21,077 bases of DNA from a virus. Below are positions 12,115-21,077 of this stretch, in pieces; within the stretch, counting starts at the first letter, position 1; the number at the start of each line of letters is the position of its first letter. Both the position numbers and the translations under genes were made by a program. Location of the stretch: the IMG/VR virus record IMGVR_UViG_3300025889_001141, positions 1-21,077 of that record; one strand, given 5' to 3'. The notes under the pieces were generated by a model, which ran no database searches, was not told where the DNA came from, and saw nothing but the letters and a program-made list of their open reading frames with translations.

Positions 12115-12899
12115 GAATACTAAGCCTTGGAGCAGGCGTACAGAGCTCTACAATGGCCTTGATGGCAGATGCTGGAGAGTTTGGTGTAAAGCCAGACGCA
12201 GCTATCTTCGCTGATACGGGTTGGGAACCTGAACCTGTAATAAAACATTTAGAGTATCTAAAGTCAGTATTAAGTTATCCTGTGTATTTAGTTAAGAAAG
12301 GTAATATCCAAGATGACATCCTCACGGCTCTCGCACCAGGTGGTAATCAATTTGCTTCTGCACCATTCTATACTTTAAACGAACAAGGTAAGAAAGGTAT
12401 GGGTAGAAGACAATGTACAAGAGAATACAAGATTACTCCGATTGCTAAAAAGATTAGAGAACTATGTGGACTTAAACCAAGACAAAGATTTCCAAAAACA
12501 GAATTTGTAGAAGTTTGGGTTGGTATATCAACTGATGAAATTATGCGTATGAAGCCTTCAAGATTTTGGTGGCAGAAAAATGTATGGCCATTGATAGATA
12601 AAAAAATGTCAAGAGAGGATTGTTTAAAATGGTATGAAGGTAAAGGATTTAAAATACCAGTTAAGAGTGCATGCATTGGATGTCCATTTCATGATGATAA
12701 GTTTTGGATTGATATGAGAGACAACCGTCCGAAAGAATTTGCATCTGCTGTAGAATTTGATAAAAAGATGCGTATGCATAACCCTAAAGTTAAAAACTTT
12801 GTACATCGACAATGTGTACCATTAGATGAGGTTAAGTTCAAAGATGATGAGGGTCCAGATTTATTTAATCAAGAATGTGAAGGGATGTGTGGTGTATGA
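12087..12899 (+). CDS. PAPS-reductase-like ATP pyrophosphatase
   Basis: The PP-loop of the adenine-nucleotide alpha-hydrolase fold is clear near the N-terminus (ILSLGAGVQSSTMALMA, residues 11-27), followed by FADTGWEPEPV (41-51). The MGRRQCTREYKI segment carries C110. C-terminal cysteines in SACIGCPFH (C196, C199, H202) and CEGMCGV (C264, C268) suggest a metal or iron-sulphur site. Phage relatives are usually annotated PAPS reductase, but the same family includes DndC, which acts in sulphur modification of DNA. I infer an activity that adenylates a substrate, not necessarily sulphate reduction. The start lies 28 nt inside the methyltransferase gene with AGGAAGG before it. Adjacency to a methyltransferase fits a role in DNA modification. 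Confidence 0.88.
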   Translation: MESNKEPKLRILSLGAGVQSSTMALMADAGEFGVKPDAAIFADTGWEPEPVIKHLEYLKSVLSYPVYLVKKGNIQDDILTALAPGGNQFASAPFYTLNEQGKKGMGRRQCTREYKITPIAKKIRELCGLKPRQRFPKTEFVEVWVGISTDEIMRMKPSRFWWQKNVWPLIDKKMSREDCLKWYEGKGFKIPVKSACIGCPFHDDKFWIDMRDNRPKEFASAVEFDKKMRMHNPKVKNFVHRQCVPLDEVKFKDDEGPDLFNQECEGMCGV

Positions 12900-13320: not shown

Positions 13321-15188
13321 CAGGATTACAATTTACATTTAACTTTAAAAAACATATTTGGTCATGTCCATCAGAGTATAAAGACTTATCAAAGTATGAT
13401 GAGATTGCAATTGACTTAGAAACAAGAGATGAAGGTATTAATAATAAATTAGGAGCAGGTTGGGCAACTGGTAATGGCTATGTGATTGGTTTTGCTGTAG
13501 CTGTAGAAGGTTGGCAAGGATATTATCCATTTAAACATTTTGGTGGTGGCAATATGATCGAGCCACAAGTTTTACAATACATGAAAGATGTTTGTAAGTT
13601 ACCTGCAAGAAAAATATTTCATAACGCACAATACGATGTTGGATGGTTAAGACATATGGGTATTGAAGTTAATGGTGAAATAGTAGATACGATGATAGCT
13701 GCGGGTATCATTGATGAAAACAGATGGTCTTATAGTTTAAATGCATTGGCTAAAGATTATCTTGGTGAGCTGAAGTCCGAAAACGATTTAAAAGAAGCTG
13801 CAAAAGATCATGGTATAGATCCTAAAGCAGAGATGTGGAAGTTACCTGCAGAGCATGTCGGGTTCTATGCGGAACAAGATGCACGCCTCACGTACCTATT
13901 ATGGCAAAGATTTAAGCCAGAAATTTACAATCAAAACTTAGAAACGATTTGGGAGTTAGAAGCTAAACTACTTCCAATATTAATTAAGATGAGGGAAAAA
14001 GGGGTTTTGGTTGACGTAGATAAAGCTCATGCTTTAAAGAAAGAGTTCCAATTACAGGAGAAAACTTATTTACAAAAAATAAAGCAATTAGTAGGAAAAG
14101 ACATAGACATATGGGCAGCACGACAAATAGGAGAAGCTTACGATAAATTAGGGATAGATTATCCACGTACTGACAAAACTCATGAGCCATCTTTTACATC
14201 CAATTGGTTAGCTAATTCGAAACACGAAATAAGTAAATATATAGCACAGGCTAGAGAGATCAACAAGTTTCATGGTACATTCCTGGATTCAATTTTAAGA
14301 TATGAACATAATGGGAGAATACATGGTGAGATTAATCAATTACGTAGCGACAGTGGTGGGACCGTTTCTGGCCGTCTGTCTATGGCTAATCCTAATCTTC
14401 AACAGCTACCCGCTCGTAATAAAGACTTTGGCCCAAAAATCCGAGGTCTCTTCTTACCAGAGCCAGGCTGTAGATGGGGATCATTTGACTATAGTCAGCA
14501 AGAACCAAGAATGGTAGTTCACTATGCAGCCTCTATAGGAGAAGGATACGAGGGATCCAATGAACTTGTAGAGGCATATGCAAATTCTGAGACAGACTTT
14601 CATCAAACTGTAGCTGATTTAGCAGGCATAGAAAGGAAACAAGCAAAGACAATAGGATTAGGACTAATGTACGGTATGGGAAAGAATAAACTGGCCAATT
14701 CTCTTGGATTATCAACAGAAGAAGCGTCAGCGCTAATAGCAAAATATAATAGAAAGGTACCATTTGTGAAGCTATTATCTGATAGATGTATGAAAAAAGC
14801 AAGCGATGAGGGTATTATTAGAACTAAGAAAGGTCGTAAGTGTAGATTTGATATGTGGGAGCCAAGAGATTTTGGTATTCACACACCAGAAACATTTGAA
14901 AACGCATCTTCAAAATACGGCAGACAAAATATTAAAAGAGCCTTTACCTACAAAGCATTAAATAGATTGATCCAAGGATCTGCAGCTGATCAAACAAAAC
15001 AAGCAATTGTAAGTTGTTATGAGGCTGGATACTTACCTAAAATACAAATACATGATGAATTATGTTTTGATATTAAGGATGAAAATGATATAAATACCAT
15101 TAAAGAAACAATGGAAACTTGTATGGAATTTAAAGTGCCAAGTAAAGTAGATGTAGCATTGGGAGATGACTTTGGACAAGCTTCATAA
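13317..15188 (+). CDS. polA: Family A DNA polymerase with 3'-5' exonuclease
   Basis: The phage replicative polymerase, 623 residues. The DEDD exonuclease domain is complete: AIDLE (D33, E35), FHNAQYD (D107) and YAEQD (Y184, D188). Polymerase motifs follow: A is FDYSQQEPRM (D391), B is ERKQAKTIGLGLMYG (R440, K444, L448, Y452) and C is IHDE (H579-E581). No 5'-3' exonuclease domain is present, which fits phage pol A enzymes. The residue equal to E. coli Phe762 (T7 Tyr526) is Leu448, a variant linked in the viral-ecology literature to slower or temperate replication. Motif A has QQEPR where QIELR is usual. The start overlaps the upstream gene as ATGA, and the 3' end is overlapped by the ParB-like gene. 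Confidence 0.95.
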   Translation: MTGLQFTFNFKKHIWSCPSEYKDLSKYDEIAIDLETRDEGINNKLGAGWATGNGYVIGFAVAVEGWQGYYPFKHFGGGNMIEPQVLQYMKDVCKLPARKIFHNAQYDVGWLRHMGIEVNGEIVDTMIAAGIIDENRWSYSLNALAKDYLGELKSENDLKEAAKDHGIDPKAEMWKLPAEHVGFYAEQDARLTYLLWQRFKPEIYNQNLETIWELEAKLLPILIKMREKGVLVDVDKAHALKKEFQLQEKTYLQKIKQLVGKDIDIWAARQIGEAYDKLGIDYPRTDKTHEPSFTSNWLANSKHEISKYIAQAREINKFHGTFLDSILRYEHNGRIHGEINQLRSDSGGTVSGRLSMANPNLQQLPARNKDFGPKIRGLFLPEPGCRWGSFDYSQQEPRMVVHYAASIGEGYEGSNELVEAYANSETDFHQTVADLAGIERKQAKTIGLGLMYGMGKNKLANSLGLSTEEASALIAKYNRKVPFVKLLSDRCMKKASDEGIIRTKKGRKCRFDMWEPRDFGIHTPETFENASSKYGRQNIKRAFTYKALNRLIQGSAADQTKQAIVSCYEAGYLPKIQIHDELCFDIKDENDINTIKETMETCMEFKVPSKVDVALGDDFGQAS

Positions 15189-15618
15189 AAATATAGTTGT
15201 AGGCCATGGAGAAGTTATTTGGCCTTTGTACATGATCTTTAAAGAGAGGCTACAGATAAAACAATTTAAAGATATTAAAATAATACACAACACACACGCA
15301 GAATTTAAAGCAACTATAAGAGGGGATATAGAGACAAAGGGTTTATTGTGTCCATTAGTAGTTGATGAAAAATTACAATTAAGAAATGGTAATCATAGAT
15401 TCAAAGCTATTAAAAAACATGGAGATGCAAGTTTATTTTACGTTGCTAAGTCAGATGAAGAAGTAAATTTTTTTTCTAGATTAAATGTTTTAACCTGGGA
15501 GCTACATCCTGATGTATCAAACTTAATGGAGAAACTATGGCAAGGGAAAATGAAAAAGTATACCGAGAAAGTCCCACACATCTTCCAAGAAAATGTAAGG
15601 ACTGTAGATCTAAAATAG
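15166..15618 (+). CDS. ParB/Srx-like N-terminal domain protein
   Basis: The 150-residue protein shows the ParB-type core: an Ile-rich strand (KDIKIIHN), then KGLLCPLVVDEKLQLRNGNHRFKAIKKHG (about residues 58-86), where NGNHR corresponds to the DGxHR-type motif. This fold occurs in ParB partition proteins, sulfiredoxin, and phage proteins with nuclease or nucleotide-binding activity. No helix-turn-helix follows, so it is unlikely to be a true partition ParB. The gene overlaps the polymerase end by 23 nt. The ATG at 15166 is directly abutted by GGGAG, which is too close. TTG at 15172 would have better spacing, so either may be used. Its 3' end is overlapped for 82 nt by a zinc-finger gene. Confidence 0.8.
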   Translation: MTLDKLHKNIVVGHGEVIWPLYMIFKERLQIKQFKDIKIIHNTHAEFKATIRGDIETKGLLCPLVVDEKLQLRNGNHRFKAIKKHGDASLFYVAKSDEEVNFFSRLNVLTWELHPDVSNLMEKLWQGKMKKYTEKVPHIFQENVRTVDLK

Positions 15619-18055: not shown

Positions 18056-18238
18056 ATGGCTAGAGATATTTTCACGAAGCACGAAGATCAACCTAAACAC
18101 TCTGGAGAGGATATACACCAAATCATTGATGGTGTACATATTGATTATGAAAAATCAAAAAAATCTCGTAGAGATATAGAAGGAACTATCTACCATCGTG
18201 ACTTACTCTCTTTCCTTATTAAAACTTATGGGCACTAG
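18056..18238 (+). CDS. Small polar protein (60 aa)
   Basis: The preferred start is the ATG at 18056, a few bases after the upstream stop. A GTG at 18020 would add 12 residues inside the previous gene. No good ribosome-binding site is seen at either. The product is polar and His/Asp/Lys-rich (FTKHEDQPKHSGEDIHQIID). No family is recognised, so this is a moderate call based on packing. Confidence 0.5.
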   Translation: MARDIFTKHEDQPKHSGEDIHQIIDGVHIDYEKSKKSRRDIEGTIYHRDLLSFLIKTYGH

Positions 18239-18659
18239 TTTTGCAGCTCAGTTGTTGAGCACTGAAGTAGAACCTGAAGAAAAATTATGGAGAGGAGTGT
18301 TAGTCAATGCCATCGAAGACGCAGGATCCAGGTCTCAAGAAAGAAAGCCTTCAATTTATAAATGTGAGGCTCATACATGGATTATGTCGAATACTACTGA
18401 TTTTCATACTGTTTGTTATTATGCTGGTTTTGAGCCTGAGCATGTAAAAGAACGATATAAAATGGCTATTATGAAAGGCGATATAGCCTTCAGTCCAAGG
18501 AACTTTGCCTGGAAAAAATATTCACTACAATTTACTAAGTATCGAAATTGTAAGGAAGAAGAATCTAAAAAATATCACCGAAAACATCTAGAACATTTAA
18601 GGCACGCAGTTGATTTGTGTACTACTGCATTTATTTCAAATTTAGTAACATCAATATAA
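18228..18659 (+). CDS. Conserved-looking phage protein, possible regulator (143 aa)
   Basis: The start is placed at the ATG at 18228, 11 nt inside the previous gene. A GTG at 18198 is possible. The core WRGVLVNAIEDAG, EAHTWIMSNTTDFHTVCYYAG and FEPEHVKERYKMAIMKGDI resembles a helical domain I associate with alphaproteobacterial phage genes near terminase genes, where DFxxVCxxAGxxP looks like part of a helix-turn-helix. That recollection is unverified. The C-terminus is basic and His-rich (KKYHRKHLEHLRHAVDLC). It is the last gene before a strong terminator. Confidence 0.7.
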   Translation: MGTSFAAQLLSTEVEPEEKLWRGVLVNAIEDAGSRSQERKPSIYKCEAHTWIMSNTTDFHTVCYYAGFEPEHVKERYKMAIMKGDIAFSPRNFAWKKYSLQFTKYRNCKEEESKKYHRKHLEHLRHAVDLCTTAFISNLVTSI

Positions 18660-18662
18660 ATA

Positions 18663-18699
18663 AAAAGGGCAGCACCAGTCTCCCGGTAGCTGCCCTTTT
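18663..18699 (+). terminator. Strong Rho-independent terminator
   Basis: AAAAGGGCAGC (18663-18673) pairs perfectly with GCTGCCCTTTT (18689-18699). Inside, ACC and GGT can extend the stem past one bulged base. The stem begins 4 nt after the stop at 18659 and ends in a T-run. The A-run on the left means it may also work on the minus strand. Confidence 0.9.
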
Positions 18700-18718
18700 C
18701 CAACTAACTTAGAAAGAA

Positions 18719-18737
18719 TGATTATGAAACATAATCA
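18719..18737. promoter_or_regulatory. Perfect 19-bp palindrome
   Basis: TGATTATG-AAA-CATAATCA has 8-bp perfect arms and lies 20 nt after the terminator in the gene-free interval. It is a good candidate binding site for a dimeric protein. The rest of 18700-18811 shows no gene beyond a 15-codon frame. Confidence 0.45.
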
Positions 18738-18811
18738 AGCGTTCGCATTAGTTTATTTTGATTAAATAGTCAAGTCATTTTTTCCTCCTTAGTTGATTCA
18801 AAGAGCGTAAT

Positions 18812-18978
18812 ATGAAAAAAAGCTAACATTTACTCTTACACCTTATCAAATTGGTCACAGGGGTCAAGTAAAATGTGTAGTTTATAATGGTTCTAAGGTA
18901 CACGCTCCTAGAACCAGATATCAAAAAGCTAGGTTTTACGTGGTTTCTCCTAGATTTTGGTATATACCCACTGCTTAG
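18812..18978 (+). pseudogene. Small ORF broken at an A7 tract
   Basis: ATG (18812) reads two Lys codons, a Ser codon and a stop, but seven A's and a G (18815-18822) form a classic A AAA AAG slippery site. A -1 slip gives M-K-K-K and then 51 open codons to the TAG at 18976-18978: LTFTLTPYQIGHRGQVKCVV and later RYQKARFYVVSPRFWYIPTA. The segment is rich in Tyr, Val and Arg and looks like a real beta-type protein. The frame itself has no start codon. It may be a decayed gene, a homopolymer sequencing error, or programmed slippage. Two copies of the CTCCTAGA repeat lie in it. Confidence 0.4.
18888..18916. repeat. Inverted repeat TGGTTCTA/TAGAACCA
   Basis: Perfect 8-bp arms (18888-18895 and 18909-18916) flank a 13-nt loop. 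The right arm overlaps the first repeat copy of the iteron-like cluster, so the left arm is in effect a diverged inverted copy. Confidence 0.5.
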
Positions 18979-19128
18979 AAAAAAAAATTAAAAAAAACTT
19001 TTTAGAAAAAATAGCCTTTTTTTCTAGGAGTCTAGGAGTAATTGACTATTATTCGCTAATACCAACACTTATTTACTCCTAGATTTACTCCTAGAACCAG
19101 TTTTACTCCTAGAAATTTCTAGGAGTAA
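18905..19128. repeat. Iteron-like cluster, eight CTCCTAGA/TCTAGGAG copies
   Basis: Exact copies of CTCCTAGA start at 18905, 18947, 19076, 19088 and 19106. The complement TCTAGGAG starts at 19023, 19031 and 19118. Three carry the longer TTTACTCCTAGA, two of them in tandem (19072-19095). Copies at 19106 and 19118 form a perfect 26-bp palindrome (19103-19128) with arms TTACTCCTAGAAA and TTTCTAGGAGTAA. CTCCTAGAACCAG occurs twice (18905, 19088). Degenerate forms (CTAAGG-type) occur at 18892, 19133, 19164 and 19180. The cluster includes an AT-rich stretch (18976-19023) and ends about 80 nt before terS. It could be an origin, a packaging site or an operator array. Confidence 0.85.
19003..19026. other. 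AT-only-stem hairpin beside iterons
   Basis: TAGAAAAAA (19003-19011) and TTTTTTCTA (19018-19026) are perfect 9-bp arms around a 6-nt loop. The site lies in the very AT-rich stretch between repeat copies and its right arm runs into the 19023 copy. It might ease strand opening or act as a weak terminator. Confidence 0.4.
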
Positions 19129-19194
19129 CTATACTCCTTACGAGTGGGGGGTAGAAATTTTTACTAAGGAGTTTTATTTTCTAAGGAAGGGGTA

Positions 19195-19206
19195 TATAGT
19201 AATTAC
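19195..19206 (+). promoter_or_regulatory. Possible -10 box for terS
   Basis: TATATAGT (19193-19200) contains a -10-like TATAGT about 6 nt before the GTG start of terS. No convincing -35 is seen, so an activator or the nearby repeats may be involved. If this box is used, the terS mRNA would be leaderless. Confidence 0.35.
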
Positions 19207-19719
19207 GTGCCAAAAAAGTCAAATCAGTTAAAAACAATATCAGAACTTACACCTAAACAACGTAAGTTTGTTGATATTTATGTTTCCAATTATGGCGAAA
19301 TTTCGAAAGTAGAGGCTGCTAAGCAAGCGGGTTTTACTTCAACAAATAAATATGGACCTACAGATCAAGCTAGTAGGTTATTAAATCCAGATAAGAATCC
19401 TCATGTAGTTAGATATTTTGAAAAACGTATGGCTCAAGAACTAGAGAAAGAAGAGAAAGATAAATTATTGTCATACAAGCACTACAACAGAATGCGAGAT
19501 GTGTCAGAGAAAAAAGGCCAGATGACAGCAGCAATTACTGCTCAGTTTAGAAGAGATCAGATGGCAGGACACTTTGTAGATAGGAAAGAAATAAGCCATA
19601 TAGGTTTAGAAGGTATGAACCGAGAACAACTGGAGAAGAGACTTGAGGAGCTTGAATCAAAAATCGGCGAAGCAAAAAACATCATTGACGTTACGCCAAT
19701 TGAAACTAGTACAGAGTAA
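19207..19719 (+). CDS. terS: Terminase small subunit
   Basis: The N-terminal 75 residues match the Terminase_2-type small subunit: ELTPKQRKFVDIYVSNYG (13-30), EAAKQAGF (36-43), a variable loop, ASRLLN, then NPHVVRYFEKRM (64-75). A helical oligomerisation region and an acidic tail follow (EQLEKRLEELESKIGEAKN). TerS recognises phage DNA and starts packaging together with the large subunit, which is not in the window. The start is a GTG at 19207. GGAAGGGG lies some 15 nt upstream, too far for a normal ribosome-binding site, while TATAGT is 6 nt upstream. The gene directly follows the repeat cluster, a common place for pac or cos sites. Confidence 0.88.
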   Translation: MPKKSNQLKTISELTPKQRKFVDIYVSNYGEISKVEAAKQAGFTSTNKYGPTDQASRLLNPDKNPHVVRYFEKRMAQELEKEEKDKLLSYKHYNRMRDVSEKKGQMTAAITAQFRRDQMAGHFVDRKEISHIGLEGMNREQLEKRLEELESKIGEAKNIIDVTPIETSTE

Positions 19720-20351: not shown

Positions 20352-20762
20352 ATGGCTCAAAACAAAGAAACTAGGATATGGCAAGAACTAAAAAATTTAG
20401 ATAAAGATTGGCATTTTACCCGCATAGAATCTAGCACAGTTAATGGTATTCCAGATGTGCACTGTGTCGTAAATAAGCAAGTTTTTTGGATAGAACTCAA
20501 AGCCAACACCAGCAAGAATTGTGGTCTTTCAAAGTATCAAATTAATTGGCATATTAAATATTTGAAAGCAGGTGGTAGAGCGTATATCTTGAATAGGCCC
20601 CTCTTGCAGAGCGCCTATGAACTTCTGGCCGTGAGCCGTGAGTCCCGAACCCCGATCCCGTTGGCACGCCACACGGATCTTAGAACCTTAATCACCTTCG
20701 CAGCGCAGCTGGGCACTGGCGCATCCTCCCGGGTCCCCGATCCCCGTCCCGAATCCCGTTAA
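20352..20762 (+). CDS. VRR-NUC nuclease with GC-rich 3' end
   Basis: The first 83 residues are a VRR-NUC (PD-(D/E)XK type) nuclease. GIPDVH carries D35, FWIELKA carries E48 and K50, LSKYQINWH carries Q63, and AGGRAYIL closes the fold. E6 or E12 near the start could be the fourth acidic residue. These enzymes cut branched or structured DNA in phages and in host FAN1. From about codon 83 the DNA becomes GC-rich and the protein turns into a Pro/Arg/Ser-rich tail (AVSRESRTPIPLARH, later RVPDPRPESR) unlike a nuclease. The normal end of the gene may have been replaced by the repeat block. No ribosome-binding site is evident before the ATG. Confidence 0.82.
   Translation: MAQNKETRIWQELKNLDKDWHFTRIESSTVNGIPDVHCVVNKQVFWIELKANTSKNCGLSKYQINWHIKYLKAGGRAYILNRPLLQSAYELLAVSRESRTPIPLARHTDLRTLITFAAQLGTGASSRVPDPRPESR
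20593..20618. other. Hairpin at the GC-block junction
   Basis: ATAGGC (20593-20598) pairs with GCCTAT (20613-20618). Inside, CTCT pairs with AGAG around TGC, giving a 10-bp stem with a small internal loop. It sits exactly where composition changes within the VRR-NUC gene. Confidence 0.5.
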
Positions 20763-20768
20763 ATAACG
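20757..20768. other. Short palindrome across the nuclease stop
   Basis: CGTTA-AA-TAACG has perfect 5-bp arms and contains the nuclease TAA stop. It directly follows a CCCG cluster. It has no T-run, so a terminator role is doubtful. Confidence 0.35.
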
Positions 20769-20794
20769 ATAATAGAACCATTGAACTCTGGCCT

Positions 20795-20830
20795 GGTGAG
20801 CTGGGAGACGCGGCTCAGGAGCAGCTCACC
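20795..20830. other. Strong GC-rich hairpin in the repeat block
   Basis: GGTGAGCTG (20795-20803) and CAGCTCACC (20822-20830) are perfect 9-bp arms. The 18-nt loop can form an extra GAG/CTC pair. A CCCG cluster follows at once. A smaller hairpin (ACCAGC/GCTGGT, 20884-20909) occurs in the next module. Confidence 0.6.
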
Positions 20831-21077
20831 CCCGATCCCGAAGCCCGATTATCAAGGAGAAATGTGGAAGAACTTAGGGCATCACCAGCTGGGAACTGGC
20901 GCTGCTGGTCAGGAGATGGTAAAGTTTCTTGGGGCGTGGGTATGGTTTATTTTCATTTTCCTTTCTCGACCCACGACCCCGTTCCCGTTACGAAAAGCTA
21001 CCCTGCTTTTCTGAACTAAGCCATCAGGAGCTGGCCAGGCGTGCAGCTGGCAGCAGAGGATCCTATTTCGGTAAATT

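Follow-up and report, generated by a model that had tools for sequence, protein, structure and literature searches.

The locus described here raises the question of what a dense cluster of short repeats beside the small terminase gene (terS) of a phage does, and which protein recognises it. The window, i.e., the whole stretch of 21,077 bases that was analysed, is a 21-kb virus record that constitutes a piece of an HTVC023P-type pelagiphage, which infects abundant marine bacteria; HTVC023P was its only nucleotide match among phage records, and the terS of that phage is 63% identical to that of the window. The accessible part of PMC9599517 ranks HTVC023P-type phages among the most abundant pelagiphages and makes no mention of intergenic repeats, termini or an origin. 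A description of the array was not found in the literature searched by title and abstract. The gene order gp19-array-terS is shared by the window and HTVC023P, except that gp20 separates gp19 from the array in HTVC023P. The large terminase gene (terL) of HTVC023P is located 5 kb beyond terS, and the distance from terL to terS in relatives is 3 to 7 kb. The window contains the following features.

18198-18659, plus strand: conserved gene upstream of the array, homolog of HTVC023P gp19 (in 101 of 101 genomes with more than 5 kb of upstream sequence)
18663-18699: hairpin with an 11-bp stem, GGGCAGC...GCTGCCC, and A and T runs at its sides (inverted-repeat search)
18905-18912, plus strand: box CTCCTAGA, outside the left arm (exact-match search)
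18947-18954, plus strand: box CTCCTAGA, outside the left arm (exact-match search)
18961-18987, minus strand: left inverted-repeat arm TATATACCCACTGCTTAGAAAAAAAAA, 27 nt, an imperfect (85% complementary) reverse complement of the right arm
18978-19022: A/T-rich tract from the left arm to the tandem boxes (read from the sequence; same position in relatives)
19023-19030, minus strand: box, first of a tandem pair with an 8-nt period (exact match; pair conserved in relatives)
19031-19038, minus strand: box, second of the tandem pair (exact match; pair conserved in relatives)
19076-19083, plus strand: box CTCCTAGA (exact-match search)
19088-19095, plus strand: box CTCCTAGA (exact-match search)
19103-19128: perfect 26-bp palindrome (inverted-repeat search)
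19106-19113, plus strand: box CTCCTAGA, left half of the palindrome (exact match)
19118-19125, minus strand: box, right half of the palindrome (exact match)
19172-19198, plus strand: right inverted-repeat arm (sequence, inverted-repeat search)
19207-19719, plus strand: terS, terminase small subunit (Terminase_2; SF6-type helix-turn-helix [HTH] at residues 14 to 78; Pfam, PHROG, structure)
20352-20762, plus strand: gp25 homolog, Hjc/resolvase-like nuclease (Pfam, PHROG), the gene behind the array in relatives L448 and L452

The repeat cluster covers about 300 bases adjoining terS and includes a module of about 240 bp with the order inverted-repeat arm, A/T tract, 6 to 8 boxes, second arm and then terS. 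All eight exact CTCCTAGA boxes (five on the plus strand and three on the minus strand) were found within 18905-19125 and nowhere else in the 21,077 bases. The preliminary description of this DNA had reported these numbers and orientations, two repeats in tandem, a perfect 26-bp palindrome and a location upstream of the small terminase gene; each was recovered (tandem pair at 19023-19038, palindrome at 19103-19128), with the boxes ending at 19125 and terS starting at 19207. The arms enclose six of the eight boxes, while the left-most copies (18905 and 18947) lie outside the left arm. The hairpin at 18663-18699 is, from its sequence, likely a terminator that separates gp19 from the array. TATA-like elements were observed inside the arms of the window and of L448, and TATATA at 19193-19198 in the right arm of the window may, judged by eye, be a -10 element for terS. 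A sigma-70 promoter scan of 18500-19400 in the window found none, and we therefore treat a promoter role of the arms as a guess. Farther downstream, the window carries a GC-rich island (20600-21050; 52% GC compared to 34% for the window) with repeated CCCGATCCC, which is not an assembly chimera, since it is 99% identical in relative L002.

A chance origin of the cluster was rejected. In 100 dinucleotide shuffles of the window, CTCCTAGA occurred 0.46 times on average and three times at most, compared to eight observed copies, and in 60 order-2 Markov resamples none of the 8-mers (all those not made of A and T only) exceeded 4 copies per 300 nt, compared to the 8 observed. A genome-wide repeat was likewise rejected, because CTCCTAGA is confined to 18905-19125 and because, in 10 near-full-length relatives, 14 of 22 CTAGGARWAA matches were located at the array by coordinates. 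Foreign or satellite copies were also considered and dismissed: 84,980 species genomes yielded 24 scattered matches, none with a SAR11 title, which we took as chance because the even-base estimate was about 100.

Conservation was analysed at several distances. All 36 close relatives (TerS at least 90% identical) with upstream sequence carried 2 to 8 exact boxes at most 450 nt from terS. The cluster is thus neither spread evenly nor lost in close relatives, the two outcomes which, according to the preliminary description, would argue against a site-specific function. When TerS was 60 to 72% identical, the exact box was gone and a cognate array with the same place and core and another flank was present (ACTAGGAAAA replaces TCTAGGAGTAA). 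When viral contigs were scanned for the tandem-box pattern, 70 stretches were returned, 62 of which had a same-strand terS 170 to 255 nt downstream; two others have terS on a second piece that overlaps the first within one contig (L111/L060 and L129/L395), two end before terS, and four were lone matches without an array. The 362 usable TerS matches, many of them duplicates, yielded 176 distinct loci with at least 300 nt of upstream sequence and a TerS of at least 150 amino acids. At least 5 boxes in 230 nt were present in 151 of these loci, 147 of them with the array at most 420 nt upstream of terS, and the second-best box clusters elsewhere in the 176 loci had at most 4 boxes.

The box varies among relatives while the layout is kept (CTAGGAGT, CTAGGAAA, CTGGGAAA and CTAAGAAA, with unrelated motifs in distant members). 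The 25 loci outside the dense-array count mostly carry variant boxes, such as CTAAGAAA in L373, where every box changed together to CTAAGA. Boxes in L333/L335 are largely CTGGGA/TTGGGA, and repeats are of the TTTGTGACA type in L401 and L402 and of the TTTCAGCCTA type in L404. No clear array was seen in L483 and L380/L381, and L457 ends downstream. The common plan, derived from many relatives, begins with a left arm, an A/T tract and the tandem pair (8-nt period). After a spacer of 30 to 50 nt come two boxes about 11 nt apart, then one inverted and one direct box, and the plan ends with an AT-rich spacer, the right arm and terS. The middle box pair has the opposite orientation in the window's clade. 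Only in the window and its closest relatives is the palindrome perfect; other relatives have an imperfect inverted pair. In 38 of 48 representatives, the arms matched each other within their own genome better than the mean cross-genome match; those of L401 have a wholly different sequence, yet match one another.

Beyond this group, no comparable array was found before terS in HTVC027P and DSL-LC04 (TerS 32 to 35% identical), which displayed only other repeat groups. In HTVC027P, dispersed GCTTGNRGCTTG repeats were observed near terS, partly inside predicted genes (L311, 16513-16650 and 17396-17740). Short CACGG-rich repeats of the CCACGGCTCACGGGCC type are numerous upstream of terL in the freshwater phage DSL-LC04 (L312, 14570-14830) and were also seen close to the array in many relatives, on its upstream side in L010, L038, L043, L055 and others.

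TerS of the window was assigned to Terminase_2 by Pfam (6.5e-7), as were 26 of 26 aligned TerS proteins. Its structure model (mean pLDDT of 72.6) superposed with residues 13 to 78 on the SF6 TerS DNA-binding domains 4zc3 and 2cmp (Z of 7.7 and rmsd of 1.7 to 1.8, over 57/57 and 56/56 residues at 25% identity; the tool rates a Z below 8 as weak). Full-length SPP1-like, PaP3 and NV1 small terminases were also among the structural matches. The TerS profile matched the PDB weakly (E of 0.085 to 0.11), and a Foldseek search of the model against the PDB returned no match at an E value of 0.001 or below. In the predicted model, TerS has the SPP1/SF6 DNA-binding fold, and the Pfam assignment and the weak PDB profile agree with the superposition. 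The relatives of TerL are distant and mixed as to packaging mode.

Natural REARRANGEMENTS were found, and several of these genomes separate terS from the array. In L417, L419 and L422, the array and terS are about 300 nt apart; in L417, the stretch from -330 to -1 relative to terS is coding-like and looks, by eye, like a possible SET-domain protein. In L448 and L452, terS directly follows gp19 with no array before it, and a complete array is located 3.7 to 4.5 kb downstream of terS, before the gp25 homolog, which is the next gene of the block. The displaced regions, in both of which terS and the array are more than 3 kb apart, are as follows.

L448, 8001-12200: displaced terS
L452, 8001-13000: displaced terS

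Since the array stays intact in these genomes although terS has moved, its role extends beyond that of a terS operator. Together, the displaced and spaced genes point to a trans-acting protein that operates on a cis site. L393 and L394 have identical TerS proteins and equal box counts, while their PolA proteins share only 61% identity, an apparent replication-gene swap. From L393/L394, the spacing of the L417 type and L448/L452, we conclude that, as a cis element, the array strictly follows neither PolA nor the start of terS.

The preliminary description had named TerS, a ParB-like protein and a ribbon-helix-helix (RHH)-like protein as candidate binders. Among the 101 genomes with more than 5 kb of upstream sequence, the ParB-like gene was present in 25, the RHH gene in 92 and gp19 in all. 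Box variation followed TerS distance after controlling for gp19, RHH and PolA (partial r of 0.28, 0.41 and 0.39, respectively; 0 of 300 permutations were as high for each control), whereas nothing remained for gp19, RHH and PolA after removing TerS (partial r of -0.05, -0.02 and -0.13). These tests covered 58 to 99 genomes that had at least four detectable boxes and were not near-identical in TerS, and the box pattern comprised the YTRGGA-type family only, so that arrays of the L401, L402 and L404 type lie in effect outside the result. Location, covariation and fold thus argue for TerS, while the ParB-like protein is disfavoured by its rarity and the RHH-like protein, with no covariation beyond TerS, gains no support. 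When TerS was split, box variation followed the C-terminal part (partial r of 0.33) and not the HTH part (0.01); the expectation that the HTH part would covary better was not borne out, and the C-terminal signal argues against a simple recognition-helix code. A DQASRLLNP helix accompanies CTAGGA-GT boxes in 31 of 31 members of the window's clade; as this is one clade, the association perhaps reflects a single event. One recognition-helix residue pair as the sole determinant is contradicted by L450, which combines DQASRLLNP with TTAGGAA boxes. Hitchhiking could also produce the TerS-box covariation, because terS is usually the nearest gene and is linked to the array.

The cluster persists while its repeat changes with TerS, both of which were observed directly, and it therefore may well be the packaging start site. 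The pac layout of SPP1 and the TTAGGTT preference of SF6 TerS, described below, led us to favour a pac-like packaging-initiation site recognised by TerS, a reading to which we assign roughly even chances. In such a mechanism, TerS rings would bind the YTRGGA-core boxes via their SF6-type helix-turn-helix domains, with the box array held between A/T-rich, bendable tracts. Bound TerS would bring the large terminase into place to cut the concatemer that results from replication, and head filling would then begin. TerS binding may also silence terS itself, which has been reported for SPP1; such self-shutoff is possible because, in the window, the site shares sequence with the start region of the gene block that terS leads. 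Binding of TerS to the array, cutting there and autoregulation are what we infer. TerS need not require an array of this kind, because pac binding by SF6 TerS depends little on sequence.

The preliminary description had offered three readings, namely, an iteron origin, a TerS-binding packaging site and an operator array. An array that serves solely as terS operator is disfavoured by L448 and L452, where it is intact, away from terS and before gp25. In an iteron-type replication origin, an initiator would bind the boxes and melt the A/T tract, and the inverted arms would give a bidirectional start. Direct repeats with an adjacent A/T tract, resembling the SPP1 ori, are present; the array is the only strong repeat cluster in the window, occupies a single locus at the early/late boundary and survives displacement of terS. 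However, box variation did not follow PolA beyond TerS, and the array is retained in L393/L394 despite their diverged PolA, although a protein other than PolA may be the initiator. No GC-skew switch was detected at the array in HTVC023P, where co-directional genes confound the measure, and further repeat groups lie between genes of this phage (12,460-12,566 and 14,890-15,080). We consider an origin at the array unlikely. The two other groups (L081) lie between terS and terL: a 33-nt unit of the ATCTTGAGAATACATACCGAAAATTTTTTGCAA type occurs three times in tandem at 12460-12566, and three spaced TTGAGAATAACAACGAAAA copies are located at 14890-15080. They are possible origin or promoter elements. 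A TTGAGA..CGAAAA pattern was seen in 5 of the 176 fetched loci.

An array for late-operon control, bound by a gp19-type or RHH-type regulator instead of TerS, appears similarly improbable. Promoters in the inverted arms would drive terS/gp25 rightward and small genes leftward. The arms, inverted copies of each other, vary in concert within genomes (38/48) and contain the TATA-like elements in the window and L448, the array precedes gp25 in L448/L452, and a gp19 homolog was found upstream of terS in every relative mapped. On the other hand, TerS and not gp19 or RHH explains box variation, RHH is absent from 9 of the 101 genomes, the gp19 homolog at 18198-18659 has neither a notable Pfam or PHROG match nor a recognised DNA-binding domain, and the promoter scan of 18500-19400 was negative. 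We regard as very unlikely a lambda-like cohesive-end (cos) site, in which TerS-binding boxes would accompany fixed virion ends. The boxes are beside terS and next to an arm, and contig ends were in excess at most 500 nt upstream of terS (16 of 131 rows, compared to 1 to 7 in the other 500-nt bins up to 12 kb; the rows were compiled by hand, with one contig, L070/L161, counted twice). These ends are ambiguous as proof of termini, being scattered over 16 to 498 nt upstream of terS instead of one point, and could reflect poor assembly of low-complexity DNA. Moreover, 7 of 10 near-full-length contigs close via repeats of 74 to 141 bp at map positions that differ relative to terS, which is consistent with a circular map and, in principle, compatible with cos. 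The least probable reading, to which we give next to no credence, is a partition site served by the ParB-like gene of the window: 15166-15618 gave weak ParB-like PHROG matches, but the gene is present in far fewer genomes (25 of 101) than carry the array.

We therefore best read the locus as one of terminase recognition, the array of which is unusually regular, fast-changing and layout-stable. If the pac-like reading holds, it would show where packaging begins in an important group of phages. More tentatively, and with some doubt on our part, TerS and the 6- to 8-box array may co-diversify as an allelic series that lets co-infecting pelagiphages package only their own DNA. The box types CTAGGAGT, CTAGGAAA, CTAAGAAA, CTGGGAAA, TTTGTGACA and TTTCAGCCTA would constitute this series, and arms, spacing and orientation persist throughout. 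How a small terminase chooses its own genome is an unsettled question. In an allelic series, TerS would recognise specific sequences by reading several boxes, in contrast to the conformation-based proposal for SF6, and the combination of array series and SF6-fold TerS makes such recognition testable by in vitro swaps of arrays and TerS proteins.

Among known systems, lambda cosB with its R sites has a set of TerS boxes in both orientations immediately before the TerS gene, together with a bendable stretch. The array is similarly arranged, whereas fixed ends were not seen among our contigs, and lambda TerS presumably belongs to a different family. The SPP1 ori combines direct repeats with an AT-rich DNA-unwinding element (DUE) (accessible parts of PMC6316719 and PMC4737164). 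The array resembles SPP1 oriL/oriR in its repeats and its putative AT-rich DUE; unlike these, it is not beside a known initiator gene, and its repeat changes do not follow PolA. According to the same parts of PMC6316719 and PMC4737164, the SPP1 pac spans the promoters, ribosome-binding site and start of its own terS and contains three sets of direct repeats; SPP1 TerS binds to the left and right of the point of cleavage, and its complex with pac reduces operon transcription. SF6 TerS shows little sequence preference and weakly favours TTAGGTT, close to the YTAGGAA boxes described here, and its recognition is proposed to occur via DNA shape (accessible parts of PMC6316719 and PMC4737164). As in the pac site and G1P (TerS) of the Bacillus phages SPP1/SF6, a Terminase_2 TerS with the same predicted HTH fold is accompanied by repeat boxes adjoining or upstream of terS, by A/T runs and by an overlap with the terS start region. 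This position was observed in 147 of the 176 loci, with L417, L419, L422, L448 and L452 as exceptions. Unlike in SF6, whose repeats matter little for binding of the DNA-binding domain, the array is strictly kept. It is also far more regular than the SPP1/SF6 sites, with 6 to 8 boxes of one family at near-fixed spacing between inverted arms, and it differs from them in that terS is separable from the array and terL is located 3 to 7 kb from terS.
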